Shown one piece after another: positions 13,916 to 61,539 of a DNA stretch of 64,000 bases (within the stretch, counting starts at the first letter, position 1; each line of letters opens with the position of its first letter). The translations under genes were made by a program, and so were the position numbers. This DNA comes from Cordylochernes scorpioides (Eukaryota > Arthropoda > Arachnida > Pseudoscorpiones > Chernetidae): the NCBI GenBank assembly GCA_030710605.1, contig CP092863.1, forward strand, positions 61,928,393-61,992,392. The letters run 5' to 3'. The notes under the pieces are model-generated. The model was not told the origin of the DNA and made no database searches. It saw only the letters and a program-made list of their open reading frames with translations.

Positions 13916-13921
13916 TATATA

Positions 13922-16534: not shown

Positions 16535-16686
16535 TTAGCGTGGAAGCCTGTCGCAGTTGTCGAAGGAGATCTTCTCCAGCTCCTTGACGTGCAGGTCCTT
16601 AGACTTGAGTTTGGAAAGGATCTTCTGGTAGTCCTGCTCACTGAAGTCCTTGTACTTCTTCTGGTGAATCAGCACGCGCAGTTGGG
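16535..16686 (-). CDS. Gene B exon 5 (C-terminal helix, stop)
   Basis: Acceptor TTCCAG before CCCAACTGCGCG. Encodes QLRVLIHQKKYKDFSEQDYQ onward and ends ISFDNCDRLPR with TAA at 16535-16537. The last cysteine would pair with an N-terminal one in typical lipocalins. Confidence 0.9.
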
Positions 16687-28600: not shown

Positions 28601-31600
28601 GGTCAGGAGAAAACTGTCTAGAGGGGTCTGTCAATCATGTCTCAAAGCGGACTAATCTGTTTGAGTAAGAAAGGGGCACACCTGGGAACCCGACTTGTTT
28701 TTCGGATCTTTTTCCTTCTACAGGTGCCGACTGTCTCTCACTCGAAATTTTATTTGTTACCTTGGCAATTACATTATAACTATATAACAAATGAGTATAT
28801 AGGTATATATTGGAATATATTACAACATATATTATAAATTGTTCTCTCATTTTATATAATTTATTATACATTAAGTACATCATAAATTAATATTACTCAT
28901 CTAAAGTGAAAAATAAAGTTAGGAAACATGATAATAAATCAGTATGATATATGGGGGGTCGGTGGAAGGATGGTCTGAACAATTGGTTTTCGACCGGTAC
29001 GACCCGGGTTTGATTTCCGCATTGGGCACTTTTTTCTTATGAAAAAAAAAATGCTCCAATTGCCCCCGATCCTTGCAAAAGTCCAACCTTACTAACGAGT
29101 GCACGAAACCGAACAGGGCTCTGGCACATTTGTAAGTGCAAAGTCGAACTGCTTTTCACATTGTCTAGAATTGTCTAATGAAACATTGTCTAAACAAAAA
29201 AAAAAGATATATTATGTGAACATACATAAAAATATTAACCTTTGATATATTTATAATATGATACAATATTAAAAATTCACACAAGCTTTAAAAATGACTC
29301 TGAATAAGTTTCAGAATGCCCACACAATTTTGAAGATTCATTAGGGAATTTGTCTCATGACCTGAGATCAAATGTGTTAGAAAAAGGTTAACAAGAGGTT
29401 GTTATATCTACTATAGTATACAATATTCAAACTTACTCGTAGGCCTTTCCATAGGAATAGAAGTTGAGCTTGTTGTTGCCCATGGTGGTGATGTTGTTGA
29501 TCAGGCAGTGGACATCTTCGATGAAGTCAAAGGTGGTGTGGGCATACTCGTACCATTGGGCGTCGAGCTACCGTATCACACAACCCCATTACTGATTTTC
29601 TGTCTTAATAAAATATTTTAAAAGATATCAATATATCATACCTGAGAAACCTCAATGTGGTAAAAAGGTAAAAATATATATATTCACATTCAAAGTCATA
29701 ATAGAAAGAGACACGATACCATAATTTACTAAGGAGCCAATATAATAAAAATAAAAAAGGTAACAATTATTTGTATTAATAACAGCAATTTCATATGTTT
29801 ACCTCATTTGCTCTTTGAAACTCTTCGCCACGCTGTCACCTTAGAAACAATGAAACTGGAAGGTCTCTATATTTATTCCTCAAAAATTCCGATATTAGGA
29901 GAGTTCACTATAATTTTACCTAAGGAATATCAACACTGAAAAAATAGGGAAAATGAAGGGAACAGAAAACTCAAACTAATGCTTATATTTTAGTTGCAAT
30001 GTAATCAATAAACTTGCAAAACATTTAGGGGACTCTCCCTTTATTAGTCTGGCCTTTTTAATATTTTAAAAAGAGCTTTAGATATTAGTTTAAATTAAGT
30101 TGAAAAATCTGGAGTAATTCTTATGAGAGATGCAAATTCAAGTTGATGTAACTTCAAGCGACAAAGAATATTCGATATTTTAGTCAAGAGGATCTAATCA
30201 AATTCTGGCGAAGGTGGTGATGATTAATCTAGTAAGTTGTTGATATATGAATAAAGGTATTGATGGGTTATTCGAAATACAGTGTGAAGTTTCAATGGGT
30301 ATCCCGGCCACAGAAAATCCTACCATCAACCCATTACATCATTGATGGCAGATTAATAAATCATTCTACTCCAATACTTCAGTTGTGTAATCTTCCCTTT
30401 TTTTTCTGTGGGCTCTTTTATTCTTTAAAACTGGTTTAACTATATAGAGAGAGAGATGAGAAAAATTGCATATTAGATTAACCCCAACTATGAGTATTGC
30501 ATTATATCTATATTATCAAGTTTTATCTTTCTGTTAATCAAATTATACTTTAATATTAAAAATTTATTTCTTCCAAGTGTTACATTTCCTTCTCCCATTT
30601 TGATAGCAAATATATAATATTTTAAAAATGATATTTTTAAATCGTTGATTTTGTATGATATATATGTTTTACTCTCAGTAAGCTAGTTAAACTTTGGTAT
30701 TTTACATGTTCTTATAATAAGCAATATGCATGGTTGACACCTGTATCAAAGTAAATTTTAAAAATAGTAATTGGCTTCAATTGCTACATGAATTTTGCAC
30801 ACCCTAAAAAACCGTACAAGTAAATAAACTGATGGACTAAATTAAACTCTTCGAATAAAAATAGCAAAATATAATGATGATTGAAGAGGAGTGTCTTATA
30901 AGAACTTTATATTCGGCGAATAAAGTTCTTATTGTTGGAATATTACAGAGTAACATAGATGGCTATAGATAAGATTGAGTTTGAAAAGGAACTTGTATGT
31001 ACATATTGTTTTATTATTTTTTTTTTCATGTAGACATATATATACCAAGATTTATTTCATATAATTGTTATTAATAATAAATAATATGTAAAGTTAAATT
31101 GGTTATGGATTCATCCTTCTTACTTACTTTAATTACATAACACTTATAAGACACTCCTCTTCAATCGTCATTATATTTTGCTAAATAAACTGATGTCTTT
31201 CAAATACAAAGTCGATATATTTTTCAATGTGTAGCGAGGTAGTGTACTTAGAGTATAGGTATTCCTAAATAAACAAGAATTAGGATAATCATATGGTCTG
31301 TATAAAGTGAATTTGATAAAGTACCAACAACAATTATAGAGTATAACCTATAAATCACATAAACAGGATTATTATGCATGTTTATTTGAGAAATGTGTCA
31401 TATTGGTATAAAAGGGTTTCTCATATGTAATGCTTTACTCTAATGAAATCTCACTATAAATTGCAAAATTGTGCATGTTATGAGGTGGAGGTGGTACTCA
31501 CGGAGTCGTAGGACACGGGGTCCACGTCGTCGATACGAGGGCAGGAAGGTGAATAGGCCGCAGCGGCTCCCAGGGCGAGGAGGGTCAGGAGAAGGACGTA

Positions 31601-33939: not shown

Positions 33940-36900
33940 CTGGAACACACGGGTGTTATCTCAACTTGAACATGGGTTTATATTTGAATCATCTTTTATC
34001 ATTCAACACAGCTTCTTTCCCATATTTTCTTTGAACTAATTTAAGAGAGACAGTTTTTTCAACTCAAAATTTTTAATATAAAAATCTAGGCTATTCAATG
34101 TGACAAGTGAATTTATAAATGACTAGCCGAATGACCCGGGCAATGCCCGGGTTTTACCCTATTAAATGTACCCTATTCAAATACTATTCGTTACAATTAT
34201 AAATTGGCGCCGTGGATGTCACTCTTGTGAAACGTCCCGCTCCAAACTTTGTGTCTGAGAAGCGATATTTTTATAGAAAGATGATCTGGCTTTTGTTTTC
34301 TGCTCGAATGAATGTTTTTCTGTTAGAATTTTGTTCCTGCATACAAAATAATGAACTGGTTTCACCCGTGGTCTCTGCTTTTTGGAATTTTTCCCGATAT
34401 AATTCTGTATCTGATAATCAAACATGATACAGCAATATCGTCATCATCATTTTCTGACTAAAAATATATAGTTTTAATAATTGATTTATATATTTTTTAA
34501 AATAGCCTATCGTCTTCCCCGTATTCTTTTACCTATGTATGGAAATTTTGGTTTGAATTAGTGAACTATTGCGAATTTGTATACAGGACATACAGACAAA
34601 CAGACAAACATACAAACATTCATTTTATATATATAGAGATATTGTATTTATAGAATACTAGCGGATGTACCCGGCTTCGCCCGGGTTTTACCCGAGTAAA
34701 GGTTTGTCTAACGAATCTCTCGATAAAGTGAACATTTTTTCCCGATCCCTTGAAAAATACTCGATAAGTTGAATAAAATCAATATTAATTGGTTCCCTCG
34801 GCAATTGGAAGTTAAAGGAATAGTATCTTGCCTTGGAATTGTATCATTATTCTTGTCTTAAATAAATTGCCATGTCATCCTGAATTTTGTCTTTCCTAAT
34901 TTTCTACATTACAAAATCATCGTATCATCATGATAATATTTAGAGCAGATTGTGTTGAATTATAACAGATAAATTAGAATATTTATCTTGATTATTTTTA
35001 GGCAAAAAATTATTTCAAAAATTTTATTTGCAAGAAACCTTTCCAGTACTATACTAAATAACTTCCCAAAGTTTCATCGCGTTCCAATGAGTGGTTTGGT
35101 CAGGCATAAAGGACAGACAGACACACACACATACATTCATTTATATATATATTTATATATATATATATATATAGAGACTTTTAAATTTGTAATACATTTA
35201 ATTTTTTTAAAGTAAATCTAAATTCACATTCTTTTTAATTATCATTTCACAGCCTATGGTAAACTGATACCACATATTATTCTTTGTTATAAATAATAGA
35301 GATCTAGTATATGAATAAATATGGGCGATAATAGCAATACTATAGTAAGAGGAAGTAAAGACTTACCAGCATAGAGGAGAGGCTTCTCGGTACAGGCCCA
35401 CAAGACCATGTGGGACTTGGGCTCGTATTCCACAATCTTGTACTTGATGGTGATAGGGGTGGCGTCTGGACACAAGTCGCTTAGGTTATGATGGTCAATA
35501 TATAAAATTCAGTAAATACTCTATAATACAATTAATGAAAATATATTTGAAGTGTTTTCATCATAGAAACATTTAGGTATGCATTTTATGTATTTCATTG
35601 GAAATAACAAATAATTTTGTTTGTTATTGAAGTGTTTGATATAAAAAAATTCACTTAGTTATTTATTGTCAAATAAATAAATAGTTTTCCCATGTGACTT
35701 GAAAATATTTTAGAAAATTTATTCTAAGTACATCTTCAGGGCTGGTGGAATAAAGTTTGTTCACCTAGGATATATAATATACATCTTATATTATACGAAA
35801 CATGACTGGGGTTCAATATATCCATCTAGAGAAATTATATGTAGCCATTTATATTTTTATTTTCAAATAATAATTATATATTCTTTTATATATTACACTA
35901 TAATTGAACTCTATCTGACCCTATATGTGGAACCTAACTCAATAAAATGATAAAATGAATTATTGCATCTTCAAATTTTGTTTAGCAAATATTAATATTT
36001 AAGGAATCTCTCTTCCATATGTATGTACCTGGCTTTTTAACAGCTCACTAGCGCCTGATAATAAGCCTGAGGTTTACTTAGCAGCATCATAAAATTAATT
36101 ATATTGAACCCATTCAATTTTTCTTAATAATAAAAATCTACCAGAGTAATATATATATTACTACTCAAATTAAAATATCTATTTCAGCATTCATTAAAAT
36201 ATATTATATCTGGAGAAACTAAGTCATTTTATATTGAAATTGTCCTTTTAAATAAGGCCCCGAACTGTAAATATTTATATTCGAAATAGAGTTTGCCTGT
36301 GCAGAATTCATTTTTAAAAAGTAATAAACACTTTTGGAGGCGCCAGTAGATCTTTTATTTTTAAACTTTTTTTTTTCAAATAGTTAGGCACTTTTTGGAA
36401 GCTCTTACTAATAGACTATTTTCTCGGGTTATTGGCCTCTATGGAATTACTCGAGAAGTCTGAATTACTCGATTTTTTTTTTACTTCGGGGTAGTAAGAG
36501 TGTTATTCATATATTCGTAAAGTGTGAATGAATATATTTCCAGTTAGGATAGTACATGTATAATACAATATAATACGGCTTATGATTGTAAAACGACATT
36601 TGACAAGTTTTACCGCAAATGTTTCTTTTGAACGAAAATCATAATTTATTTTAAGGAGAAATGACTATTTCTATCCTTAGGTTCAACGCGCGCGCGCGTC
36701 ATCTAGCGTTTACATTGTTATTGAAATCCTTATTTCTATCCTTTGAGATGAAGTATGAAAGGATGAATTGTGAAGAGTAATAATGAGCGGAAAAATAAAA
36801 GTGGCCAGGGATGGGAATTGGGATGTATGCATGTTATTTTATTTTAGGGGGGGGGGGGAGTATTTTTATAAAATATTGTGAGGAAATACGAAAAAATATC

Positions 36901-43894: not shown

Positions 43895-43994
43895 NNNNNN
43901 NNNNNNNNNNNNNNNNNNNNNNNNNNNNNNNNNNNNNNNNNNNNNNNNNNNNNNNNNNNNNNNNNNNNNNNNNNNNNNNNNNNNNNNNNNNNNN
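43895..43994. other. Assembly gap, 100 N
   Basis: Exactly 100 N, the conventional placeholder for a gap of unknown size. Confidence 0.99.
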
Positions 43995-44434
43995 TTATAA
44001 ATTGGCGCCGTGGATGTCACTCTTGTGAAACGTCCCGCTCCATACTTTGTGTCTGAGAAGCGATATTTTTATAGAAAGATGATCTGGCTTTTATTTTCTG
44101 CTCGAATGAATGTTTTTCTGTTAGAATTTTGTTCCTGCATACAAAATAATGAACTGGTTTCACCCGTGGTCTCTTCTTTTTGGAATTTTTCCCGATATAA
44201 TTTTGTATCTGATAATCAAACATGATACAGCAATATCGTCATCATCATTTTCTGACTAAAAATATATAGTTTTAATGATTGATTTATATATTTTTTAAAA
44301 TAGCCTATCGTCTTCCCCGTATTCTTTTACCTATGTATGGAAATTTTGGTTTGAATTAGTGAACTATTGCGAATTTGTATACCGGACATACAGACAGACA
44401 AACATACAAACATTCATTTTTATATATATAGAGA
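43995..44434 (+). mobile_element. Helitron H2, larger part of a split copy
   Basis: Corresponds to 34194-34639 of the intact H2 copy. The missing 3' end lies at 57228-57301 in opposite orientation. The last bases before each gap abut without loss when this contig is reversed. Confidence 0.85.
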
Positions 44435-44777
44435 TATAGAAGGCATATCCTTACCAGGAGCACATGTGCTTTTTAGATGGCAGAGCTCCTGGTCAGGATA
44501 TGCCTTCTTTATTTTTTTGATATCAACACCTGATCTTTTTTATTTTTTCTATTATTTTTTCATATATGCATATAGATAAAAATTTAGCCGGGAGGATATT
44601 GATCTTAAAAGATAAGGGTCGCCTCTCATGTCAAAATAGACGTCAAAACCGTCAATAGATGGCGTCTGGTTTTGACGTCTATTTTGACGGGAGAGGCGAT
44701 CCTTGTCTCTTAAGATATATATGTATATGTATTGTTATGTTTGACAATCATGACATAACGACTTGAATTATGTCCAG

Positions 44778-44876
44778 ACAAAACCCCCTTCACCATCGAG
44801 TACAAGATTGTGGAATTCGAGGCCAAGTCCCACATGGTCCTGTGGTCCTGCACTGAGAGGCCCCTCCTCTTCCTCG
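44778..44876 (+). CDS. Lipocalin gene C exon 4 (misoriented contig)
   Basis: 99 nt, acceptor TATGTCCAG, donor GTAAAC. Encodes KTPFTIEYKIVEFEAKSHMV and LWSCTERPLLFL. Exons 1-3 of this gene are on the minus strand at 57865-61539. Phase 1 at both ends fits them. Confidence 0.88.
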
Positions 44877-45039
44877 GTAAACCCCTACTCCGTCCTCACT
44901 ATAGAATTATCTTATTAGCTCACATATATATCAAATATTTGGGTTATTAATATATGCTATACATCTATCAAGTAATAATATCAGGCCTCCAGGTTAACTG
45001 CAATAATTTTTAGTGAAATATGATTCAAGTAATAATTGA

Positions 45040-45268
45040 TTTTAGAACAATATTTGAAAATTATCGGGCATGTGTTTCTTTTAAACGAAAATTCGAAATT
45101 TATTTTAAGGAGAAATAGCGATTATTTCTAACCTTAGGGATGAAGTATGAAAGGATGAATTGTGAAGAGTAATAATAAATGAAAAAATAAAGTGTCCAGG
45201 GATGGGAATCGAACCCACAGTGTTTCGTTTACCGGGCAGATGCCATGTCCACTAGGCTATCCTGGACA
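45040..45268 (-). mobile_element. SINE S1, full copy with tRNA-Thr-like head
   Basis: Head at 45193-45268 (minus strand) keeps the complete T arm that the duplicate at 17609 has partly lost. GTCCAGG/CCTGGAC acceptor pairing is perfect, while the anticodon stem has a mismatch. Body extends down to about 45040. Confidence 0.78.
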
Positions 45269-45757
45269 TATTTTAACAATATTGATAATTGATTTTATTT
45301 GGCGATAGGTTTACGGTAAACTAGAGTTGACAATGCAATAAAATTCTCCCGTGTGTCAATTTTGAGGAGGCCTGATATTCTTACTGTATACGGATACAAG
45401 GTATTCTTTTATTGAATTGTTAGTCATCTATGCTTGAATAGAATCAACCAAATTCTCTCAGATTCTAATTAAAATTTATTTTCTTGACAAATATTGAGGT
45501 TAATATTATATGTTATACATCTATGCTAGAATAGAACCACTCGAATCCTATGATATTCTAATTATTTCATTCTCCTCTAAAATCAAATTTCATGTTTGAT
45601 CATCAGTTGTAGTAGAGAATCTTTCTATGTGCGATGAAAATTATAGATAAAATAAACATTTATTTTCTTTACGGGAAAACATTTTAAAAGTGATTCTTAA
45701 ATGTGGTTTGAATACCAATTGAATATCTTTCTATTTTAATTGTTACAAACTTTATTA

Positions 45758-45933
45758 CAGTTAAACCTATCTATAGCGCCCCCTCTAGGGACTCACCAAA
45801 ATAGGGTGCTATAAAGAGGGGGTGCTATAGACAGGTCACTTTTATTGAAAAATGTTTACATTTTATTTGTAAAATCGGGCGCTATAGAGAGGAAGGCGCT
45901 ATTTAGAGGGGGCGCTATAGACTGGTTTAACTG
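45758..45933. mobile_element. MITE (CAGTTAAACC ends), gene C intron 4
   Basis: 176 bp, TA-flanked, duplicate of 16888-17063. Confidence 0.85.
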
Positions 45934-46140
45934 TACTATATTTAATAATTTTATATCCTTTGAAAATTTACCTTCCTTGTTTTATTGAATATCCTAGATT
46001 TATATTTTAAAATAATATAAATTAAAAAAAAAAAAAAAACATTTTTTCTCATATTAATTTAAACGCAAAAAAAAGATGGTTGAAGATGATTTTAAAATAT
46101 AAACCCATGTTCAAATTGAGATGACACCCGTGTGTTCCAG

Positions 46141-46292
46141 CCCAACTGCGCGTGCTGATTCACCAGGAGAAGTACAAAGACTTCAGTGAGCAGGACTACC
46201 AGAAGATCATTTCCAAACTCAAGTCTAAGGACCTGCACGTCAAGGAGCTGGAGAAGATCTCCTTCGAAAACTGCGACAGGCTTCCACGCTAA
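46141..46292 (+). CDS. Lipocalin gene C exon 5 (misoriented contig)
   Basis: Acceptor GTGTTCCAG. Encodes QLRVLIHQEKYKDFSEQDYQ onward to ISFENCDRLPR, with TAA at 46290-46292. Nearly identical to gene B exon 5. Confidence 0.9.
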
Positions 46293-46305
46293 GGAGAGAC
46301 GTACA

Positions 46306-46311
46306 AATAAA
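46306..46311 (+). terminator. Polyadenylation signal, gene C
   Basis: AATAAA, 14 bases after the stop codon. Confidence 0.75.
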
Positions 46312-46639
46312 CTCCACTATCATAAATCTCTCTCGAGTCATATCTTAACTTTCCAGACACCTACTATACACACGGTCATAACAGCACATTGACATGGTCG
46401 TTAAAACATTTTTGCAATAATATTTTTAAATACCACAAAATAAATTAATACAATTAAATATTAATGGTGATGAAGAGTTTTAAATTAATGAAAAATTTGA
46501 AAACCATGTCATTGATCTTAGTCTTTAATTATTCAAAATAGTTCAATATGTCTTTTTAAACTTTGAATACCTTGATAATAAATCGCCAACTCTATATTCA
46601 GTAAATATAATTTTATATAAGGGAAATGGAAAATGGCTG

Positions 46640-47165
46640 CTTTATAAAGTCGTTCATGTGGTGTAATCCCTTTCAAAATATTAAAAATTCATAACTACCC
46701 TTGATTAGAATTTATTAAGTTATATGGAAGGTTTACAATAATTGCGACGAAATTTATTATTTAACCTTCAAAATATTCACACTTTGTACTCACCCTTGGA
46801 TCGAGTTTATTAAAATATAAAAGGTTTACAATATTTTTTTTTTGCTACAAATTTATGATATGACCTTCAAAATATTAACAATATTAATCCACCCTTGCAT
46901 AGAGTTCATTATGATAAATGGAAGGTTTACAATGGTTGCTACAAAATTTATGGTGTAACCTTCAAGATATTAACAATTTATACCCTCCCTTGGATAGAGT
47001 TCATTAAAATATAAAAGGCTTACAATGGTACTACGAATTTTATGGTATAAGTCTTAAATATTTTAACAATTTGTACCCACTCTTGATTTATAGCCCATTA
47101 AGATATAAAAGGTTTACAGTGGTTGCTATGAATTTTATGGGGTAACCACTTCAAAATATTAACAA
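46640..47165. repeat. Degenerate tandem repeat, about 95 bp unit
   Basis: Mirror copy of 15590-16170, cut by the Helitron at 47166-47868 and resuming at 47869. More degenerate units with the same GGTTGCTA..TTTATGGTGTAAC words continue through 50700-50900, 52560-52850 and 53340-53640, indicating a once larger array. Confidence 0.75.
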
Positions 47166-47868
47166 CTAGCGGACGTACCCGGCTTCGCCCGGGTTTTACC
47201 CGAGTAAAAGTTTGTCTAACGAATCTCTCGATAAAGTGAAAATTTTTTTCCCGGTCCCTTGAAAAATACTCGATAAGTTAAATAAAATCAATATTAATTG
47301 GTTCCCTCGGTAATTGGAAGTTAAAGGAATAGTATCTTGCCTTGGAATTGTATCATTATTCTTGTATGGATGTACCCGGCTTCGCCCGGGTTTTACCCGA
47401 GTAAAGGTTTGTTTAACGAATCTCTCGATAAAGTGAACATTTTTTCCCGGTCCCTTGAAAAATACTCGATAAGTTGAATAAAATCAATATTAATTGGTTC
47501 CCTCGGTAATTGGAAGTTAAAGGAATAGTATCTTGCCTTTGAATTGTATCATTATTCTTGTCTCAAATAAATTGCCGTGTCATCCTGAATTTTGTCTTTC
47601 CTAATTTTCTACATTACAAAATCATCGTATCATCATGATAATATTTAGAGCAGATAGTTGAATTATAACAGATAAATTAGAATATTTATCTTGATTATTT
47701 CTAGGCGAAAAGTTATTTCAAAAATTTTATTTGCTAGAAACCTTCCCAGTACTATACTAAATAACTTCCCAAAGTTTCATGGCGATCCAATGAGTGGTTT
47801 GGTCAGGCATAAAGGACAAACAAACAAACAAACAGACACACATACATTCATTTTTATATATATATAGA
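47166..47868 (-). mobile_element. Helitron H3 with partial internal duplication
   Basis: Minus strand TCTATATATATATAAAAATG to CGTCCGCTAG. The roughly 200 bp 3' end occurs twice (47166-47366 and 47367-47570). Inserted exactly between A and T of GGGTAAAAA^TTGTTAAT, whose empty version is in the duplicate at about 15671-15686. Confidence 0.85.
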
Positions 47869-48087
47869 TTTTTACCCACCCTTGATTAGAGTTCGTTAAG
47901 ATATGGAAGGTTCACAATGGTTGCTACGAAATTTATTATGAAAAAATGAAGAAATTAACCTCCAACAATGTAAAGATTTCAATGAGTGAAAGCGACTGTA
48001 CAATGGTTTTTAAATTTTAATGTTACAACTTTAAAAATATATTTAAACATTCGCAACCATATAGGTAAATGGAAATAAATAATATAG

Positions 48088-48259
48088 TAGAACCTCCCTT
48101 TAGCAGACACCCCGCTAGCGGATGCCTCTCTACAAAGGACAGTTTTCATTTGTAAAATGATCATTTTTACTATTCAGCAACTCTCCGGTCAGAGGACACC
48201 TCTTCCTAAGGGACACTTTGGCACCGCAATAAAGTGTCCTTTACAGTAAGGTTCTACTG
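48088..48259. mobile_element. MITE, pogo/Tigger-like (CAGTAGAACC ends)
   Basis: Mirror copy of 15279-15453. Internal words CTAGCGGATGCCTCTC and GGTCAGAGGACACC pair into a near-palindrome. Confidence 0.7.
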
Positions 48260-48297
48260 TATATATGCCAAATGTACAATATGTGCTTATATATTCA

Positions 48298-49211
48298 CTA
48301 GACGAATGGCCCGGGCAACGCCCGGGTTTTACCCGAGTGCGGATATGTTTTTAAAACGTTGTCTTGGGTGGTCGCTATAGACAGGGTGGTCTGTATAGAC
48401 AGGTGAATGTAACACACAGCTGATAACAGGGTTGTCTAGAGTGGCCGCTATAGACAGGGTGGTCTGTATAGACAGGTGGATGTATCACACAGCTGATAAC
48501 AGGGTTGTCTAGAGTGGCCGCTATAGACAGGTGTATGTATCACACAGCTGATAACAGGGTTATCTGGAATGGCCGCTATATACCGGGTGGTCTGTATAGA
48601 CAGGTGGATGTGTCACACAGCTGATAACAGGGTTGTCTAGAGTGGCCGCTATAGACAGGGTGGTCTGTATAGACAGGTGGATGTATCACACAGCTGATAG
48701 CAGGGTTGTCTAGAGTGGCCGCTATAGACAGGTGAATGTAACACACAGCTGATAACAGGGTTGCCTAAGGTGACCGCTATAGACAGGGTGGTCTGTATAG
48801 ACAGGTGGATGTATCACACAGCTGATAACAGGGTTGTCTAGAGTGGCCGCTATAGACAGGTGTATGTATCACACAGATGATAACAGGGTTATCTGGAATG
48901 GCCGCTATATACAGGGTGGTCTGTATAGACAGGTGGATGTATCACACAGCTGATAACAGGGTTGTCTAGAGTGGTCGCTATAGGCAGGGTGGTCAGTGGT
49001 CGCTATAGACAGGGTGGTCTGTATAGACAGGTGGATGTATCACACTGCTGATAACAGGGTTGTCTGGAATGGCCGCTTTAGACAGGTGTATGTATCACAC
49101 AGCTGATAACAGGGTTGTCTAGAGGGGGGCAGGGAGGACACGTGTTCGCCGGCAGCCAATGGGCGCGCATTCTATCCGCGAGCTTCAGAATAAGGCAATT
49201 ATATAAGTAGA
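48298..49211 (-). mobile_element. Helitron H1 with expanded minisatellite
   Basis: 914 bp. Minus strand TCTACTTATATAATTGCC.. to ..CATTCGTCTAG. Inserted between A and T of AGCTATCCTA^TGAATATATA; the uninterrupted site is at 15232-15250. Confidence 0.88.
48360..49125. repeat. Minisatellite, about 70 bp unit, 11 copies
   Basis: Eleven occurrences of the CTGATAACAGGGTT core (one as GATAGCAGGG, one as GATGATAACAGGG). Some units lack the GGGTGGTCTGTATAGACAG part, giving two unit lengths. Corresponds to the five-copy array at 13990-14345. Confidence 0.9.
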
Positions 49212-49662
49212 TAGGATAGCTTTAAGATATTGGCAAATAATACTTCATTGGATAGATTTCATTGGAATAAAGCGCTTGTTAATATATTAAAGCCTTTGTA
49301 TTCACAATTGAATAGTGAACTTGAAGAAAGGTTAAATACACAAAGGATGCTGAAGTGATTGAGGTACAAATATCTGGAATCCTGACCCTTTTTAAACACC
49401 TTTGGATGAAATCCAATATGATATAGCAAATGTACAATGTTTGCTAAGGTATTAATGGTATGAATTTGAATATTTAACTGTTTTTAAAATCTATCGGCGT
49501 CACATGATGTACACTATAACAAAAAGGTCGAAGCACCAAGAAGAGGTTTTCCAATTGGGTTTAAAATTGGTAATTGTGAAAAAATGTATAGGGGAAAAAA
49601 CGATTAAAATTTCAGAACAATTAATTATTTATATAAGAGTTTGATCGTCAAAATTGAGAATG

Positions 49663-49851
49663 TCAATATGTCGTTGGACCCCCACTGGTCTGGATGTAGG
49701 CAGCCACCCAGCGTGTCATGGACTGATAGTGATTCCGGATGGTGTGCTTTGGGATTTCTTGCCAAATTGTCTCAAACTGTCGGGCTAAGTAGTGAAAATT
49801 TCAGGTTGGTTGCAATCGCCTACCCTCCACGTCTCAGATTTGCTCTTTAAG
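49663..49851 (-). pseudogene. Tc1-like transposase C-terminal fragment
   Basis: Mirror copy of 14602-14788, with W-Q-E-I-P and S-M-T-R-R type ends and the same stop codons. Confidence 0.65.
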
Positions 49852-49982
49852 GTGAGAGTTCAAACGACCTTGCTGGCTATAGGAGAAGTTCGGCAAGATT
49901 AAAAACAATCCATAGTAACACGTTTTGTATTAGACCGGGAATTATATTTTCAAAAGTAACCCCGGGGTGATATGGGGGGGGG

Positions 49983-50018
<36 letters not shown>

Positions 50019-50126
50019 CAGCCCATAAATACGGTGCTACAACAGCAGTTCTGGAAATCGTTTTGTCGTGTCCGGTTTTGTTGTGTCCTTTATTCAACCG
50101 CAGCCTTTCTAAATGTTAAATTATTC

Positions 50127-50216
50127 GGTTGTTAACCCACTCTTGCCAACATCGTCAATTGCCGCATCACTTCAACACAGATGTCTCGCGATTAATCTAT
50201 TTGAACAACCAGCCAT
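50127..50216 (-). pseudogene. Tc1-like transposase N-terminal fragment
   Basis: Mirror copy of 1553-1642. Here the middle of the transposase is missing: only about 280 bp, including a poly-G and an AT microsatellite (49974-50012), separate it from the C-terminal fragment. Confidence 0.6.
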
Positions 50217-50264
50217 CTTTCAAGCCAATGTGTAGTGATAAAAAAGAGGAACATTTATACCCTC

Positions 50265-51020
50265 AAATGCATTACCTTCATTTGGATAGTTTCATTTGGC
50301 TTAGGAAAATGCGCATTGTTGTGCAAGACGTTAAGGTTGTGATTTTGAAGCTTTTTTAATCAATTCTACTTACCATTTCGAGGAGTTTATCTATTTTCAT
50401 ATAAATTAGATAACTCCATCTTGATATGTGTTGTCAGTTTTTTACAGGGTGTATCTCATTAAGATAGTGCATTTATATACAATGGATACTTAAATTTTTA
50501 TTTTGTAACTTTTGTAATATATAATATGCATATATGGTTTGACCAAGGACTTGGTTGTTGTTGTGTGATGTAATCAATATATAGCGTGAGATGTTTTTAG
50601 TTCTTATGATAATTCTGTAATAATATTATACAAATATATAACAGTAGCATACAATATATTTTAATAGAAACTACACTACCTAAGTTTATTGAATATTAGG
50701 TAGAAGAGTACTGATACCATTGGAAATAGTTTGAGATTAAAAGTTTATAATAGTTGCTAAGGTGTTTATTATCTAACATTCAAGATATTTAGTAATTTTC
50801 TCGTCATTTTATCATTTAATTCAGATAAGACAATATACAATTGTTTCTAAGTTACCTTTTTGAAACCTTATAGAAATATGACCGTTTTTACCCACAAATG
50901 CATTACCTTCATTTAGATAGTTTCATTTGGTTTAAGAAAATGCGCAATGTTGTGTAAGACGTTTATGTTGTGATTTTGAAGCTTTTTTTAATCAATTCTA
51001 CTTACCATTCAAGGAGTTTA
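50265..51020. repeat. Direct repeat pair (50265-50395 and 50890-51020)
   Basis: Both contain CATTACCTTCATTTGGATAG / TTCATTTGGCTTAGGAAAAT, GTTGTGATTTTGAAGC and CTTACCATTTCGAGGAGTTT with few changes. Part of the Tc1-like remnant copied or inserted twice. Confidence 0.7.
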
Positions 51021-51059
51021 TTGAGATGACAAGTTTACAAAGGTTTTAAACACAAGGTA

Positions 51060-51130
51060 ATAAGACCAAATCCAAATAAATAAATAGTGTGTGACGTTTC
51101 GGTAACAGCGTTGTTACCATCTTCAGACAA
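51060..51130 (-). mobile_element. Penelope-like element end, hammerhead-like core
   Basis: Minus strand: CTGAAGA (51126-51120), stem GGTAACA/TGTTACC, then GAAACGTC (GAAA at 51100-51097). As at 32485, one extra base lies between the CTGANGA box and the stem. Flanking TTTATTTATTTGGATTTGG on the 3' side. Probably a remnant. Confidence 0.45.
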
Positions 51131-51139
51131 AAGTACTGA

Positions 51140-52146
51140 ATAGGAAATTTTACCACAGCTTGTTTTAAATAGTTACTGTTATCAAGTGTGTAAACAAGAT
51201 AGCAGATAAGAAGAAGATAGTTATCTGAGAAACACAGAATATTATTCTTAGAATTAAAAGTGGAAAAAATCCAATTTTTTTTTTTTAAATATAATTAAAA
51301 GCATATCAATAAATATCATTTATATTTCTTCTTTTTTCCATTCTGTTAATTGTAGCACATTTCTTTTGAATGAAAAAGGCTTCTTTAAATTGTCTCTTAA
51401 ATGGTTTCTAAAGATTAATTTGTCTAACCATGAATATAATTAAACTTTTGTACCTACAATTCGATTAAATTTATTCAAATAAATCAAGTTCACTCAGATT
51501 ACCATGATGTTTATATTGTAGCGAAGTATTTATCATTTTATTATCAGATTATCGAATATTGATATTTATATTTTGTTACTCTGTAAATTTCCCTCATTGC
51601 TTATCTTGTATTTTATCAATTTTAATTTGTTATTGCCTATAATAAATTTCTATATCATCCTGAAATTTGTCTTTGCTAATTTTCCACATAACAATATGGA
51701 TATTATATTATATTATTGTATATATTATATTATTGTATATATTATATTATTGTATATATTCAAATTTTATATCGACATAGAGCGCTATATCCCACTAGGA
51801 ACACTTGAACTTTAAAGGTAAACTGAACACAGAAATAAAAGAATATTTGAAATATGTATAAGAATTAATATTCATTTTAGTTATATGAAAATATAAAAAA
51901 TATCAACACAATTGAAATATGTACAAAGAGTTGGTATGCATATTTAGTTAAATAAAATAAATTGTAAATTATTGTGTGTATTCGAGGAAAACAATTTACA
52001 GATTGAAGGAAGTTTTTAAGGAATATTTTAGAATGAAAATGTGCAAGATATTAGATAACTATTCACAATACAAAACTATGTTAAACAGAGTTAATGTCTA
52101 AATAAATATATTTTATATTATATCAGAAGAGATATCGTATATAACA
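51140..52146. other. AT-rich intergenic sequence
   Basis: Contains a TATTATATTATTGTATA short tandem repeat (51705-51765). Nothing else recognised. Confidence 0.5.
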
Positions 52147-52150
52147 ATAT

Positions 52151-52453
52151 TGTCAAGTAGCTCGACAACCCCAGCCATAGGAAGCTCCATGGGACACCTG
52201 TCAATCATCACTGGACTCCGGGGGGACAGGTTTGAGGGGTTCTCGGAATCTTATCGGCAAATAAGGAAGACGAGACACCACGGTGGCTGTCCACTCTCAT
52301 TATTATTATCTTTACCTTGGGATAAGTTGTTATCTCTCTCCCTATAAATACCTCTTGTGTATAATTTTATTGGATAACTAAAAGGTAAATACCCACCTTT
52401 ATAATAAAGTAATTATCCCCAAATTTCTCTTTCTTTATTTTATCTCCTCGACA
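52151..52453 (+). mobile_element. Candidate solo LTR
   Basis: 303 bp starting TGTCAAGTAGCTCGACAACC and ending TATCTCCTCGACA, flanked by ATAT (52147-52150 and 52454-52457). Internal TATAAATA (52344) and AATAAAG signals sit in the order expected for an LTR. No internal element sequence next to it. GC-richer than its surroundings. Confidence 0.5.
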
Positions 52454-52459
52454 ATATGA

Positions 52460-53187
52460 ATATTTTACTATTTTCTTTCTTCTACAACATTGTTTAGAGT
52501 TAATTCAGATGATACAAGTGAACAATGATTACTAAAACATTTCCTTTTAGTTAACTTTACATAAATTTAACAATTAGTACTTACACATTTGGAAAGATTC
52601 CATTGAGATAAAGCAAAAAAAAAAAAGATTTTAAAGGTATTTATGGGGTAACTTTTATAAAAGAATATCTACATTGATACTCACCATTTGATAAAGTTTA
52701 TTTATATAAGAAAGTGTATAATGGTTGCTAAGAATTTTATTGTGTAAATTTAAAGTTTTTTGACCAAATATACTCAACATTGGATATAGCTCATTGAGAG
52801 AAATAAAATTTAAAATATTTGCGCAAAGAAGATAAATATTCTTATGGAAATAAAGAGGCATCTATATTGGATTGGATAAAAATATTTTATTAGATATATA
52901 CTTATATAGGTTTTTAACTTTTAATTAGACAATTTTAATTTATATTTAGACATTTTTCATTTTAATTTAGACACATGGACATTTTATAGAAATGAAAGGT
53001 ATAATAAAAACATAAAGCCTCCAGGGAAAATATTATTTTAAAAGAATCTTTTCCCTGGAGGTCTTATGTTTTATTTTAATATTGATTCAAGGGATTATTT
53101 TATCGAAAAATGAAAGTGTCTAAAATAAAATGAAAAATGTCTATATATAAATTAAAATAGTCTAATTGAGAGTTTAAAACCTATATA
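52460..53187. other. AT-rich region with degenerate repeats and a hairpin
   Basis: Holds decayed units of the 95 bp repeat (52560-52850) and the hairpin 53021-53040 / 53049-53068 (CATAAAGCCTCCAGGGAAAA and complement), related to 42480-42720. Confidence 0.5.
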
Positions 53188-53347
53188 CAGTAGAACCTCT
53201 CTTTAACGGACACCTTTCCACAAAGGATAGTTTTCATTTTCAAAATTACCATTTTTACAATTTGGTAACTCTCCGGTAAGAAGATACCTTTCCCTAAAGG
53301 ACTTTTTGGCTCTTAAATTAGGTGTCCTTTACAGGGAGGTTCTACTG
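53188..53347. mobile_element. MITE, pogo/Tigger-like (CAGTAGAACC ends)
   Basis: 160 bp, inverted ends CAGTAGAACCTCTCTTTAAC and complement, TA on both sides. Confidence 0.85.
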
Positions 53348-53641
53348 TATTATCCAAGATATTTAGCGATTTCTACCGCCATCGAATATAAATCATTGAG
53401 ATAAATCAAAAACATAAGTTGCTAAGTAGTTTATGGTGTAACCTTATTTCTTTTGAATCGACCGTTTGTATTCACCAATGGGTGAATTTCATATAGATTA
53501 GGTAGTGCTATTATTATAATGGTTGCTAATATTCTTTTTATATAAAACTTCAGCATATTGAACCATTTAAACTCAACATTGGGTGAAATTTCAACAGGAA
53601 ATATTTTTCGTCTGAAATAGATTTGACTCCTGATGTATATA

Positions 53642-54961
53642 CGAGGTGTGTTCAAAAGGTATCGCGACTTTTGAATTTTCGCGGGTTACGTATATTCGAA
53701 TTTCGATCTTTATGTGGCTTTATGTTGGTACTCATGTCTCTCAATTATGCCGACAAGCTCGGCCATTTTGAATGTTCACTTAATTGTTGACAGCTGCTTT
53801 GCTTGCAGGTGTTTTGGATCGTCTTCGATTTTTACCTATTAAAAAAAATGGATCAAAGAACCTGTATCAAATTTTGTGTGAAAAACGAAATTAAGTGCGC
53901 GGATGCATTCCGAATGTTGACTGTGGCATACGGAGAAGCTACCTTGGACCGAAGCAACGTTCTTCGGTGGTACAAAATGTTCTCAGAAGGCCAAGAAGAT
54001 GTGAACGACGAAGAGCGTGCCGGACGCCCGAGCACTTCAACAACAGACGAAAAAATTTATGAAGTGGAGAAAATGATATTGGCCAATCGTCGAATCACCG
54101 TTAGAGAAGTTGCTGAGGACCTAAACATATCGATTGGCTCGTGCCATTCGATTTTTATCAATGATTTGGGCATGAGACGGGTCGCCGCGATATTCGTACC
54201 AAAATTGCTCAATTGCGACCAAAAACAGCATCGCATGAACATTGCTAATGAGATGTTGGACTCTGTCCGCGACGACCCAAATTTGCTCCAGAGGGTCATA
54301 ACTGGTGAGGAAGCGTGGGTTTATGGTTATGACGTGGAAACCAAAGCTCAATCATCTCAATGGAAGCTGCCGCACGAACCAAGACCGAAAAAAGCTCGCC
54401 AAGTTCGGTCGAATGTGAAAGTTTTGCTGACAGTTTTCTTCGATTGCAGGGGCGTGGTGCATCATGAGTTCTTACCACAGGGTAGAACGGTCAATAAGAA
54501 ATATTACCTGCAGGTTATGCGCAATTTGCGCGAAGCAAACCGCCAGAAACGCCCGGATTTGTGGAAGAACAAAAATTGGCTTTTGCACCACGATAACGCC
54601 CTGCTCACACATCGTTGCTTGTGCGCGACCTTTTGGCCAAAAACAACACACTAATGATGCCGCAGCCACCGTATTCCCCAGAACTGGCCCCCTGTGACTT
54701 TTTCTTGTTCCCTAAACTGAAGAGGCCCATGAAAGGACGACGTTACGCTACGCTTGACGAGATAAAGACGGCATCGAAGGAGGAGCTGGAAAAGATTTTT
54801 AAACATGATTTTTTGAAGTGCTTCGAAGATTGGAAAAACCGTTGGCACAAGTGTATAATATCTCATAAAGATTACTTTGAAGGGGACAAAATAGGTATTC
54901 ATGAATAAATACATAATTTTTGAAAAACACAAAAGTCGCGATACCTTTTGAACACACCACG
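53642..54961 (+). mobile_element. mariner transposon, second type (1320 bp)
   Basis: Inverted ends CGWGGTGTGTTCAAAAGGTA then TCGCGACTTTTG, with TA duplications (53640-53641 and 54962-54963). Encodes a nearly complete transposase. Its ends and protein differ from the mariner at 7402-8709. Confidence 0.93.
53848..54908 (+). pseudogene. mariner transposase (DD34D type), one frameshift
   Basis: Starts MDQRTCIKFCVKNEIKCADA, chosen because it aligns with mariner N-termini. The longer open frame from 53803 is upstream noise. Helix-turn-helix (FSEGQEDVNDEERAGRPST) and WVYGYD follow. The first catalytic site reads ITGEEAW, with E where families have D. The second, LHHDNA, is intact, but a one-base deletion near 54600 shifts the frame. 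The rest (LVRDLLAKNNTLMMPQPPYS, ELAPCDFFLF) continues in the next frame to a stop at 54906-54908. Both a substitution and a frameshift make it inactive. Confidence 0.9.
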
Positions 54962-54963
54962 TA

Positions 54964-56853
54964 GTTGTTTAATTGTTTTGCATAATATTTCATTTATAAA
55001 TTTAGTTTGTGAAAATAAAAATATTGGGCTGGTGACCAAACAAACTGTAAATAGATGGCCTAATGTTATATAGTTATGATATATAATTAAATGTGATGGC
55101 TATGTAATTTTTATATTCATTGAATAAAATATATAAATTTTAAATGTGTTTTAAACTTTAATAATAACCACAGAACAACTCCTAAATTAACTAATTTTCC
55201 AAATCAATTTCCGAACGAATTGTCAATTTGGAACCATAAAATGATTATAAGAATGTATTGATAAATGTTTAACTTCATCCCAAATACATTTATATGCATA
55301 TAGAGTGTTAAACGATCAGAAGAACACAAATTACTCATATTGACAATTGTTAAAAATAAAAATAAACTTCAAAACACAAACACAATCTAGACCTTTTATA
55401 TTGGTATAGTCTTAAAGATGCCATCCCTTTTTAATAACAGCGAGTAACAAATCCAAAATCACATAAAAAAGAAAGATTTAGAGGAAATCCATTAAATGCA
55501 TATGACCATAAAGAAATTAAACAACTAGCTTGTCGAAATGTCGAAAAGAATTGACAATATTATATAATCAAAATCTAAAATCAGTTGAATCGTGTTTTAA
55601 AAAAAATCTACTATACATCTCTAGAATGAACTGAATGAATATTGGTATAAAATATAGAGATTATTCTGGAGAGAGAGAGATTTAGATTGAAACTGATTTA
55701 TTTCACAATGTTCATATGAGATTATATAGGGTTAATTACAAAATTGAATAAATACGAATAAATGAGATTATATAATAATAAATATAGGAATAAATAGATA
55801 AAAATAATTGATAAATATACATATATATATATATAAAATATATACAAGGTCTTCATTGGTGGAGCTCACCGCGGGAGAGAGAGAGAGAGAGACCATTTAA
55901 GGATCACTATTTTTTTTAATACATAGTTGTTGAGGCAAATCCAAATAAGCAGAAGTAAATATCTCGATATTCTCAACTATCATATATGCATATAATACAC
56001 TATCGAATTATTTTCTGACATTTTGCAACTCACGGATATCACTATGGTTATAAAATTATATTATTGGTAAAAGAAGTAATTCAAATAATTTTGCACATAA
56101 ATTTATTTTTTCAAAATTTTATTGTGCCTGTAGACCCCCTTCCCCAAATGGATTAGCGCTGCTTGATATTAGCAAATCCTAAAGAGCGATTGAACCTGAT
56201 GGTATATATGAACAATTGCCAATGCAGGTGTAAAAAGAGAAATAATTTTAAGGTTGAGAGCAACACGTCTGTTAAATGGGTAAAGTCCCCTCCGTTTTAT
56301 TATACATATTCACCTTGAAGCAGTTTGATCAATGAATTATTCTTAAAATTTAAAAACAATATTGCATATCGACAGTTAAGAGTAAGAGATAGAATACAAA
56401 ATAGATGTTGAGTGAACAACATTTTGGAAGCTAGTAATAATTATGCAAAGTGGATAAAGCTACAATATCAAGTAAAGTTGGTGGATTTTCGAAATACACA
56501 TCAAACAATTAAGAAATCCTGATTGCCTGAAAAGAACAATACATACAAGTGTGTATGCCACAGATACAGAAAATTTCTTAAATCACAGTCCCATAAGGAT
56601 TAAATATTATGAACCTGTAGGAAATTCTCAATAGCCAAATAAAACTAGTAATTTGAACCAGTGCTATTCAGGAAGCTTTTCAATCAGAACCAGAGACTCA
56701 AATTCGTAAGTCAACAGCCCAACACAGACATCCAGCCTACATGAAGTACTAAAGGACGATATAACTTGAATTTTATCACAAGAAATTACTGGAAAAACTT
56801 TTATAAATAATTTTGCCATCATGCAGCCACTAATCATCCTTATTTCTTATATA
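54964..56853. other. AT-rich intergenic sequence
   Basis: GA-rich microsatellites near 55667-55680 and 55873-55892. No gene, RNA or known repeat recognised. Confidence 0.5.
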
Positions 56854-57008
56854 CAGTAGAACTTGGATAATTCGAAAATCTTTAATTCGAATATTTATCT
56901 TGGGCCCTAGTATTTCCTATGAATAGAATTTCCGTTTTTAATTCGAATTTTCAGATGATTCGTTTTTTTTTTGGTTCCTTGGGCTTCAAATTATCCAAGC
57001 TCGACTAT
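56854..57008. mobile_element. MITE, Tigger-like (CAGTAGAACTTGGATAATTC ends)
   Basis: Ends ACAGTAGAACTTGGATAATT and TTCAAATTATCCAAGCTCGA are inverted partners. Interior AT-rich (TTAATTCGAATATT). Confidence 0.7.
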
Positions 57009-57127
57009 ATATATATATATAAAGTAGAGAGTACCTATATATATATCATATATTCCCAATCTATTTTAATATATTGCTCTTGAATCTTCTCTCTTATAAT
57101 ACAATGCTATTTACTTTTAAAGCGATC

Positions 57128-57227
57128 NNNNNNNNNNNNNNNNNNNNNNNNNNNNNNNNNNNNNNNNNNNNNNNNNNNNNNNNNNNNNNNNNNNNNNNNN
57201 NNNNNNNNNNNNNNNNNNNNNNNNNNN
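57128..57227. other. Assembly gap, 100 N
   Basis: Exactly 100 N, so the size is a placeholder. Both flanks have partners elsewhere that suggest the preceding contig is reversed. Confidence 0.99.
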
Positions 57228-57301
57228 TTTTAACGAATAGTATTTGAATAGGGTACATTTAATAGGGTAAAACCCGGGCGTTGCCCGGGTAATTCGGCTA
57301 G
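57228..57301 (-). mobile_element. Helitron H2, 3' end of the split copy
   Basis: On the plus strand ..AATAGGGTAAAACCCGGGCG TTGCCCGGGTAATTCGGCTAG, i.e. hairpin then CTAG at the Helitron 3' end, followed by T. In the intact copy the next base inward is the first base of contig position 43995. Confidence 0.85.
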
Positions 57302-57864: not shown

Positions 57865-58001
57865 AGTCACGAGAATATTCAGGGTGCTTGTCCAGATGGA
57901 TGCGGAGGTTGCGGTCAAGCTTGAATTTGGGGAGCTTCTCATCGACGAAGGTACCGTTGGCCTCGACTCTCATCGGAGCACTGAGGCAAACATTGGACAT
58001 T
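57865..58001 (-). CDS. Gene C exon 3
   Basis: MSNVCLSAPMRVEANGTFVD, EKLPKFKLDRNLRIHL, DKHPEYSRD. Donor GTAAGT, acceptor GATGTACTCAG. Confidence 0.9.
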
Positions 58002-61000
58002 CTGAGTACATCTTCAGAGCTGTTGGAATGATGTATGTTGGACATGTAACACATATCTGGATGCAAGCTCTTTAAACCTATAGTGTCACCCTTTTTTCAA
58101 CAGAATAAGTCTTTAATATATAAATCTTTAAGGATTGAAATGACAAGCTGTTAAAATAGAGAGTCAAGGAAAACAACATACGTTTTTGTCTGATTCTGTT
58201 AAAATTGAACAAGGCTATTTTTCTTCATAAACTACTGAAATATTGTATTTATTTAAGTAAAAACAGGCTGTAATGAAATAAACCTAAACTTTTATTTATA
58301 TAAAATAAATTATAAATTAATTATAAGATGATAGCGTACTATTTATATATAAGAAATGGAAGCATGGCAATGGAAGCAAGGTTTATTTCATTACCTAAGC
58401 CTTTTATTTATATAAACAAATTATATATTAATATATTCATATTTAAATACGAAACATTCGTGCTTAAATGCTTCCATTTCTTATTATAGATAGCACGTTA
58501 TAAATATCTAGTATTGTAGTTGTTATATCTTGTTGGTTGACTGTAGTGTAGCATGTTGGTTAAATGCAGTCGTTGTGGCCTCAATGTTAGAGTGGGTTCA
58601 GGCGTGAATGTATTACACCAAAGAACGAGGCATGTTGGATGTCACCATAGAGATGGCGAGAAAGTGAGTGTAGCCGACACCGGTCAGGGGAGAACTGTCT
58701 AGAGGGGTCTGTCAATCCTCGTGTCTCAAAGCGAACTAATCTGTTTGAGTAAGAAAGGGGCACACCTAGAAACCTGACTTGTTTTTCGGATCTTTTTCCT
58801 TTTACAGGCGCGGACTGTCTCTCACTCGAAATTTTATTAATTTCCTTGGCATTATAACTATACAACAAATGAGGATATAGGTATATATTTGAATATATTA
58901 CAAGATATATTCTATATTGTTCACATTTTATATAATTTATTATTCATTAAGTACATCCTATATTAATATTACTCATCTAAAGTGAAAAATAAAGTTAGGA
59001 AACATTCTAATAAATCGATATGATATCTTATGTGAACCTACATAAAAATATTACCTTTTGATATATTTAGAATATGATACAATATTAAAAAATTAATACA
59101 AGCTTTTAAAATGACTCTGAATAAATTTCAGAATGCCCACACAATTTTAAAGATTTATTAGGAAATTTGTCTCATGACCTGAGATCAAATTTGTTAGAAA
59201 AAGGTTAACAAGTGGTTGTGATAACTACTATAGTATACAATATACAAACTTACTCGTAGGCCTTTCCATAGGAATAGAAGTTGAGCTTGTTGTTGCCCAT
59301 GGTGGTGATGTTGTTGATCAGGCAGCGGACATCTTCGATGAAGTCAAAGGTGGTGTGGGCATACTCGTACCATTGGGCATTGAGCTACAGTACCACACAA
59401 CCCCATTACTGATATTTCTGTCTTATTAAAACATTTTTAAAAAGATATATCAATATATTATACCTGAGAAACCTCAATGTGGTAAAAGAGGTAAAAAATA
59501 TATTCAAATTCCAAGTCATAATAGAAAGAGACATGACACCAGAATTTACTAAGGAACCACAATAATAAAAATAAAAAAGGTAACAATTATTTGTATTAAT
59601 AACAGCAATTTTAGATGTTTTACCTCATTTGCTCTTTGAAACCTTTCGTCAGGCTTTCACCTCAGAAACAATGAAACTGGAAGGTCTCTATATTTACTCC
59701 TCAAAAATTTCGATTCAGGAGAGTTCACTATAATTTTACCTAAGGAATAACAACACTGAAAAAATAGGGAAAACGAAGGGAACAGAAAATTCAAACTAAC
59801 GCTTATATTTTAGTTGCAATGTAATCAATAAACTCGCAAAACATCTGGGAGACTCTCCCTTTATGAGTCTGGCCCTTTTAATATTTTTAAATGAGCTTTA
59901 GATATTAGTTAAAATTAAGTTGAAAAATCTGTAGTAATTCTTATAAGAGATGCAAATTTCTAGTTGAAGTAACTTCAAATAAAAAATATTAATCGATTTT
60001 TTAGTCACGGGGATCTAACCATATTCTGGCAACAGTGGTTATGATTAGCCTAGTAAAATTGTTGATATATGAATATAGGTGTTGATGGGTTATTCGAAGT
60101 ACAGTGTGAAGTTTCAACGGGTATCCCGACCACAGAAAATCCTAACATCGACCCATGGCATCATTGACGGCAGAATAATAAATCATTGTACTCCAATATT
60201 TCTAATACAATATAACGCGGCTTATGATTGTAGAACGACATTTGAAAATTATCCTGAATGTTTTTTAAACGAAAAATCGAAATTTATTTTAAGGAGAAAT
60301 AACGATTATTTCTAACCTTAGGGATGAAGTATGAAAGTATGTGGGCGCTCTTATTCTTTAAAACTGGTTTAACTAGAGAGAGAGAGAGATGAGAAAAATT
60401 GCATATTAGATTAACCCCAACTATGAGTATTGCATTATATCTATATTATCAAGTTTTATCTTTCCGTTAATCAAATTATACTTTAATATTTAAAATGTAT
60501 TTCTTCCAAGTGTTACATTTTCTTCACTCATTTTGATAGAAAATATATAATATTTTAAAAGTGATATTTTCAAATCGTTGATTTTGTATGATATAAATGT
60601 TTTACTCTCAGTAAGCTAGTTGATTTTTGAAATTTTACATGTTCTTATGATAAACAATATGTATGGTTGACACCTGTATCAAAGTAAATTTAAAAAAATA
60701 GTAATTGGGTTTAATTGCTACATGAAATTTGCACATCTAAAAAACCGTACAATTAAATAAACTGATGGACTAAATTAAACTCTTCGAATAAAAATAGCAA
60801 AATATAATAATGATTGAAGAGGAGTGCCTTATAAGAACTTTATATTCGGCGAATAAAGTTCTTATTGTTGGAATATTACAGAGTAACATAGATGGCTATA
60901 GATAAGATTGAGTTTGAAAAGGAACTTGTATGTATATAATGTTTCATTGTTTTTTTTTTTTCATGTAAACATATATACCAAGATTTATTTCATATAATTG

Positions 61001-61539
61001 TTATTAATAATAAATAATATGTAAAGTTAAATTGGTTATGGATTCATCCTTCTTACTTACTTTAATTACATAACACTTATAAGACACTCCTCTTCAATCG
61101 TCATTATATTTTGCTAAATAAACTGATGTCTTTCAAATACAAAGTTGATATATTTTTCAATGTGTAGCGAGGTAGTGTACTTAGAGTATAGGTATTCCTA
61201 AATAAACAAGAATTAGGATAATCATATGGTCTGTATAAAGTGAATTTGATAAAGTACCAACAACAATTATAGAGTATAACCTATAAATCACATAAATAGG
61301 ATTATTATATATGTTTATTTGAGAAATGTGTCATATTGGTATAAAAGGGTTTCTCATATGGAGTGCTTTACTCTAATGAAATCTCACTATAAATTGCAAA
61401 ATTGTGCATGTTATGAGGTGGAGGTGGTACTCACGGAGTCGTAGGACACGGAGACTTCCACGTGGTCGATAGGAGGGCAGGGAGGTGCGGAGGCCGCAGC
61501 GGCTCCCAGGGCGAGGAGGGTCAGGAGAAGGACGTACAT
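57865..61539 (-). CDS. Secreted lipocalin, gene C exons 1-3 (gene continues on the misoriented contig)
   Basis: Exons 61435-61539, 59254-59384 and 57865-58001 on the minus strand, with the same phases as genes A and B. Signal peptide MYVLLLTLLALGAAAASAPP. Strand A LNAQWYEYAHTTFDF. Exon 3 begins MSNVCLSAPMRV. The frame then needs an exon starting AC in phase 1, which is exactly what 44778-44876 provides on the other strand, followed by 46141-46292. All five would give 207 residues with no stop. As assembled the gene is broken; reversing contig 43995-57127 makes it colinear. Confidence 0.85.
58505..58830. other. Unidentified GC-richer intron segment (duplicate of 28436-28760)
   Basis: See the gene B counterpart. 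Several indels between the two copies break any shared frame, which speaks against coding. Confidence 0.4.
59254..59384 (-). CDS. Gene C exon 2
   Basis: LNAQWYEYAHTTFDFIEDVR onward to YSYGKAYE. Acceptor CTGTAG, donor GTAAGT. N replaces D in the second position compared with A and B. Confidence 0.9.
60202..60343 (-). mobile_element. SINE S1 fragment, gene C intron 1
   Basis: CGGCTTATGATTGTAGAACG, ATTTTAAGGAGAAATAACGA and TTAGGGATGAAGTATGAAAG match the S1 body. Absent from gene B intron 1 (near 30375), so inserted after the duplication. No head. Confidence 0.75.
60797..61120. mobile_element. MITE in gene C intron 1
   Basis: Duplicate of 30864-31181, with the same inverted ends and inner hairpin. 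Confidence 0.75.
61435..61539 (-). CDS. Gene C exon 1 (signal peptide)
   Basis: MYVLLLTLLALGAAAASAPP then CPPIDHVEVSVSYDS, donor GTGAGT. More changes than in gene A after the signal peptide. Confidence 0.9.

Follow-up and report, generated by a model that had tools for sequence, protein, structure and literature searches.

Inversions are described as common in Hi-C scaffolding when the input contigs are short, because a wrong orientation carries a similar link weight (PMC6719893). In instaGRAAL/GRAAL, the bins of restriction fragments can be flipped or relocated, and DpnII is among the enzymes mentioned (PMC7386250). False duplications, including diverged haplotype contigs in a primary assembly, are ranked among the most common assembly errors in a further report, which also describes a real inversion that splits exons (PMC8081667). 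Here we examine a window of 64,000 nucleotides from the pseudoscorpion Cordylochernes scorpioides (contig CP092863.1, here C1, 61928393-61992392; genome of 2.62 Gb in 24 sequences), in which a 13-kb piece between two gaps, P1, parts the exons of a gene (gene C) and the halves of a Helitron transposon. Comparison with a second copy of the region, which carries the intact gene B, makes it very probable that P1 is a scaffolding error, backwards and misplaced, and no biological inversion.

The error is an ordinary assembly artefact of a known kind, larger than stated in an earlier note made from the sequence alone. Like the misoriented contigs of Hi-C scaffolds (PMC6719893), P1 is a short reversed contig between two gaps; here the piece has also been moved, the error is revealed by base-exact joins to uncut copies and not by a reference, and we infer the use of Hi-C. 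As with the bins of instaGRAAL/GRAAL (PMC7386250), units that may be made of restriction fragments are flipped or displaced, whereas one of the four exact joins here lies at no GATC or GANTC site. The likeness to heterotype false duplication (PMC8081667) is that diverged haplotype contigs of one region would stand in one assembly; such duplications are recognised by read depth and k-mers, whereas the present case was judged from the assembled sequence. In window coordinates, negative to the left of its first base, we name the pieces X (up to -100632), P0 (-100531 to 43894), P1 (43995-57127), P2 (57228-74349), P3 (74450-119506) and P4 (124015 onward). The coordinates of the features are given in Table 1.

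Gene C had been described as split between strands with matching phases, and splicing over the flipped join indeed gives 213 residues with 0 internal stops. Exon lengths are identical to those of gene B apart from three bases in exon 1. Within 264 kb around the window, 13 copies of this five-exon gene were found, two of them incomplete; in 12 of the 13 all detected exons lie on the minus strand in the order e5-e4-e3-e2-e1, and only the exons of gene C are divided between the strands. The minus strand also carries a 14th copy farther to the left and, farther to the right, three diverged matches to exons. At the residues at which gene B departs from nine other full genes, exons 1-3 of gene C read as B in 6/13 and as the other genes in 7/13, and exons 4-5 as B in 9/13 and as the others in 3/13; these subtype residues favour only moderately that the parts are one gene. 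Gene C would also be split by a true inversion of 13 kb, fixed or heterozygous, that broke inside the Helitron and at 57127. That exons 4 and 5 have kept their reading frame and splice sites speaks against it, as does the lack of any inverted match longer than 60 bp between the two flanks in the window self-comparison, and we regard such an inversion as extremely improbable. A heterozygous one would, by our reasoning, also break an assembler exactly at both ends.

Collinearity points in the same direction. When P1 as assembled and the right flank are compared with the second copy, 6 blocks (14.6 kb) line up in a chain, all in the right flank; with P1 flipped, the chain grows to 14 blocks and 25.8 kb. 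Judged from these alignments, the gain goes beyond chance. In the order X, reverse complement of P1, P2 and P3, compared with P0 followed by P4, a single chain of 24 blocks and 57.9 kb results, against 17 blocks and 47.5 kb when P1 is left as assembled.

The Helitron cut by the gaps also bears on the join. Helitrons start with 5′ TC, end with CTRR just after a hairpin at the 3′ end and insert between A and T with no target duplication. The element carries these hallmarks of a non-autonomous Helitron: TCTCTATATA at one end, and a hairpin CCCGGG..CCCGGG followed by CTAG at the other. The segment 43995-44437 matches 34197-34642, at an intact copy, with 97.5% identity. Consistent with the claim that the halves abut at the length of the intact copy, the joined halves (43995-44437 plus 57228-57301, 517 bases) agree with it in 507 of 521 columns, 5 of them gap columns; within 25 bases on each side of the join there are 0 gaps and one mismatch, with no base lost or gained at the join. 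The empty site in gene B was likewise confirmed to unite both Helitron flanks: joined with one Helitron base kept, these are identical to it in 306 of 331 columns (14 gap columns), as expected for a Helitron insertion when the filled and the empty site are compared. Among the best 40 of 2402 candidates in a genome search, query included, copies were 98-100% identical over nearly all 517 bases.

Each side of P1 carries a 100-N gap, as had been noted, which by itself says nothing on orientation; 100 N is a convention for a gap of unknown length. Reversal restores gene, Helitron, target site and collinearity at the gap-2 side. On orientation, every test thus agreed with the earlier note. It had P1 merely reversed in its correct place, and the orientation and the gap-2 join fit this picture, but an in-place flip mends the gap-2 side only. 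The placement of 57127 beside 43894 that it implied failed, as each of these ends fits elsewhere base-exactly.

We had at first assumed a zero-length join of 43894 to flipped P1. The 118 bases with which flipped P1 begins are repeated at 98% at -20312 (4 matches, the query included), and the bases preceding that copy are unlike the end of P0. This ruled the join out and led to a search for the true left neighbour. Among the best 40 of 2293 candidates for these 388 preceding bases, a single further match was full-length, and it ends at C1:61827760. A 100-N gap begins at C1:61827761 (window -100631), directly after the end of X, 100.6 kb before the window; the position was predicted first and then found. 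Four joins were compared with uncut copies: X with flipped P1 (514 of 522 columns identical), flipped P1 with P2 (515 of 553), P2 with P3 at 124197/124198 (578 of 589) and P0 with P4 at 74166/74167 (573 of 584). All are ungapped within 25 bases of the join. In contrast, with the N omitted, no alignment in 324 kb covers 20 bases on both sides of the assembled adjacencies X/P0, P0/P1, P1/P2 and P3/P4. These comparisons support the order X (to C1:61827760), reverse complement of P1 (57127 to 43995), P2, P3 and, separately, P0 followed by P4.

This order bears on both alternatives. A P1 that is only reversed is scarcely more probable than the real inversion: in the first copy, the bases before the first GATC of P1 are the end of X and not 43894, which fits 124015 with no base missing. 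Likewise, as the left flank joins 124015 and P1 joins X 100 kb away, inverting P1 in place does not reproduce the order seen in the other copy. We also weighed two separate tandem duplications as the origin of the assembled order. These would have to break twice, independently, at one base, 74166/74167, and once more at the GATC where X ends, and we rejected them by inference.

GATC is the recognition site of DpnII, and enzymes that cut there are common in Hi-C. Of seven cut points, four lie directly before a GATC, namely X/P1, P2/P3, the end of P3 (judged from its copy) and 187277/187278 (binomial P 6.5e-10, given 1 site per 481 bases), while the cut P0/P4 splits a GANTC site (GAAT/C). A run of 4508 N at 119507-124014 (C1:62047899-62052406) comes after a piece whose copy goes on with GATC. 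Outside the array, window 186000-189000 has a second copy at 99-100% that is cut at 187277/187278; the cut copy lies in C1:62178192-62179470 and, inverted, in C1:61377355-61379079, about 800 kb apart, and both halves end at 100-N gaps, whose far sides were left out of the count of seven. Together with the cut points, this second case suggests a fault that is repeated along the chromosome. Such a piece with the same signature elsewhere on the chromosome, and the end of P1 exactly at a GATC, again argue against a real inversion.

We therefore return to a scaffolding error. In this explanation, a continuous sequence would have been cut, several times exactly at GATC, probably by a Hi-C scaffolder, which would have rejoined the pieces in a wrong order with 100-N gaps. 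The short P1 would additionally have been inserted backwards, and near-identical pieces of two copies, probably two haplotypes, interleaved. Several observations weigh against this explanation. Neither GATC nor GANTC is present at the Helitron join or, going by its copy, at the start of P0, and in the second case the sequence on the far side of each gap does not start with GATC. The proposed order leaves the 4508-N run unaccounted for and does not place the left neighbour of P0. Along P1, identity with the second copy is still 97.2% in the last full 1-kb bin, drops to 92.8% in the next, which includes the flipped join, and is back to 98% within 4 kb; the drop would also suit a patchwork of copies.

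Table 1. Features at and around P1 (window coordinates unless given for C1).
Feature	Position	Strand	Basis or remark
Gap 1, 100 N	43895-43994	.	apparently false junction P0/P1; spanned by no alignment in 324 kb
P1, 13,133 bp, very probably placed reversed	43995-57127	- (true orientation relative to window)	gene, array, collinearity, joins
Gap 2, 100 N	57128-57227	.	apparently false junction P1/P2; supported join is reverse complement of P1 to P2, zero length
Left flank, end of P0	40200-43894	+	40200-43893 matches 70468-74165 at 97.5%; 43894 joins 124015, not P1
GATC at end of P1 (first four bases once flipped)	57124-57127	.	cut exactly at restriction site
Helitron 5′ part	43995-44434	-	5′ TC at 44434-44433 in flipped reading
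Helitron 3′ part	57228-57301	+	terminal hairpin, CTAG end
Intact copy of same Helitron, length yardstick	34123-34639	-	5′-TC to CTAG-3′ on minus
Empty target site of Helitron in second copy (gene B)	18433-18449	+	filled versus empty alignment
Gene C exon 1	61435-61539	-	exon borders read from sequence
Gene C exon 2	59254-59384	-	exon borders read from sequence
Gene C exon 3	57865-58019	-	exon borders read from sequence
Gene C exon 4, on P1	44778-44876	+	exon borders read from sequence
Gene C exon 5 with stop codon, on P1	46141-46292	+	exon borders read from sequence
Gene B, intact counterpart of gene C	16535-31603	-	all exons on one strand
Gene B exons	16535-16686, 17994-18092, 27353-27507, 29437-29567, 31502-31603	-	splicing comparison with gene C
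100-N gaps of second case	C1:61379080-61379179, C1:62179471-62179570	.	one side of each is half of the cut copy

The two collinear copies of the tandem array most likely represent both haplotypes of one outbred individual, which a single scaffold interleaves. As second-copy fraction we took the share of a piece that has another copy of at least 94% over 500 bp within the examined region. It is 0.56 for X, 0.15 and 0.49 for P0 left and right of -27500, 0.73 for P1, 0.81 for P2, 0.58 for P3 and 0.79 for P4 to 157007. Second copies are mostly single, the fraction with two or more others being at most 0.07 in each piece, and for DNA flanking the array, too, there is a 99-100% second copy, as would be expected of retained haplotypes. 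Both points disfavour a true young segmental duplication, which would leave the block order still wrong and overlaps with our explanation save for the haplotype part. We consider a duplication the less likely source of the copies, though a possibility to be taken seriously, as the copies do not diverge evenly: they differ mostly by 1-3% but in patches by as much as 8%, and the 24 collinear blocks comprise 14 with an identity of 96.8-98.5%, 3 with 95.2-96.3% and 7 with only 90.1-91.9%. Also in favour of a duplication, and at the expense of haplotypes, at one place on C19 no full-length second copy was seen among the best 40 of 4640 candidates, and the second-copy fraction is 0.00 for 157008-174000 and 0.01 for 174001-214000. 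To the left of X, 3 kb of sequence match the region upstream of the gene at -83.3k, with 96.8 and 98.4% identity, so that part of the partner of the left half of P0 lies outside the examined region.

The tandem array comprises at least 14 copies, two of them incomplete, from -106511 to 172300 (C1:61821882-62100692). Its product of about 210 residues looks secreted and has no significant match in Pfam, PDB or protein searches; it may perhaps be lipocalin-like. For the 213-residue protein, no Pfam family was found at E 0.1 and no database protein at E 0.001, though 198 candidates had common words; its single PDB match, at E 0.13, was taken as chance. A profile of six sequences gave no match at E 5. 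When six members were searched against Pfam at E 10, weak hits fell in three families, matched by 3, 2 and 1 of them with a best E of 0.04; gene C had no such hit.

Further elements distinguish the copies. A long terminal repeat (LTR) retrotransposon at 18500-26344 (LTRs 18500-19096 and 25761-26344, 95.8% identical) lies inside gene B between exons 4 and 3 and encodes reverse transcriptase and RNase H domains; in the collinear comparison it is absent from the matching part of gene C. An inverted pair of a 425-bp repeat (1755-2177 and 13500-13921, 93.6%), with similar repeats elsewhere in the region, encloses about 11 kb with transposon remains, and this insert splits blocks that adjoin in P1 (50009/50001). 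A minisatellite-bearing stretch (13916-14438 versus 48290-49198) occupies different sites, in opposite orientation, in the two copies.

Gaps can be tested without reads when exact joins are compared with a second copy that was not cut. As the fault seems to recur on the chromosome, inversions and copy numbers called from this assembly should be checked. It is a rather doubtful suggestion that one scaffold combines two haplotypes of an array that changes fast, the copies being set apart by patches of up to 8% divergence and by several transposon insertions; if alleles, they would be strongly diverged, perhaps at a selected locus. Taken as assembled, the sequence would have gene C annotated as broken, an inversion called, and the copy number and order of the array wrong. 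With P1 backwards and misplaced, gene C, seemingly broken in the assembly, is probably whole, and nothing biological would have been inverted.

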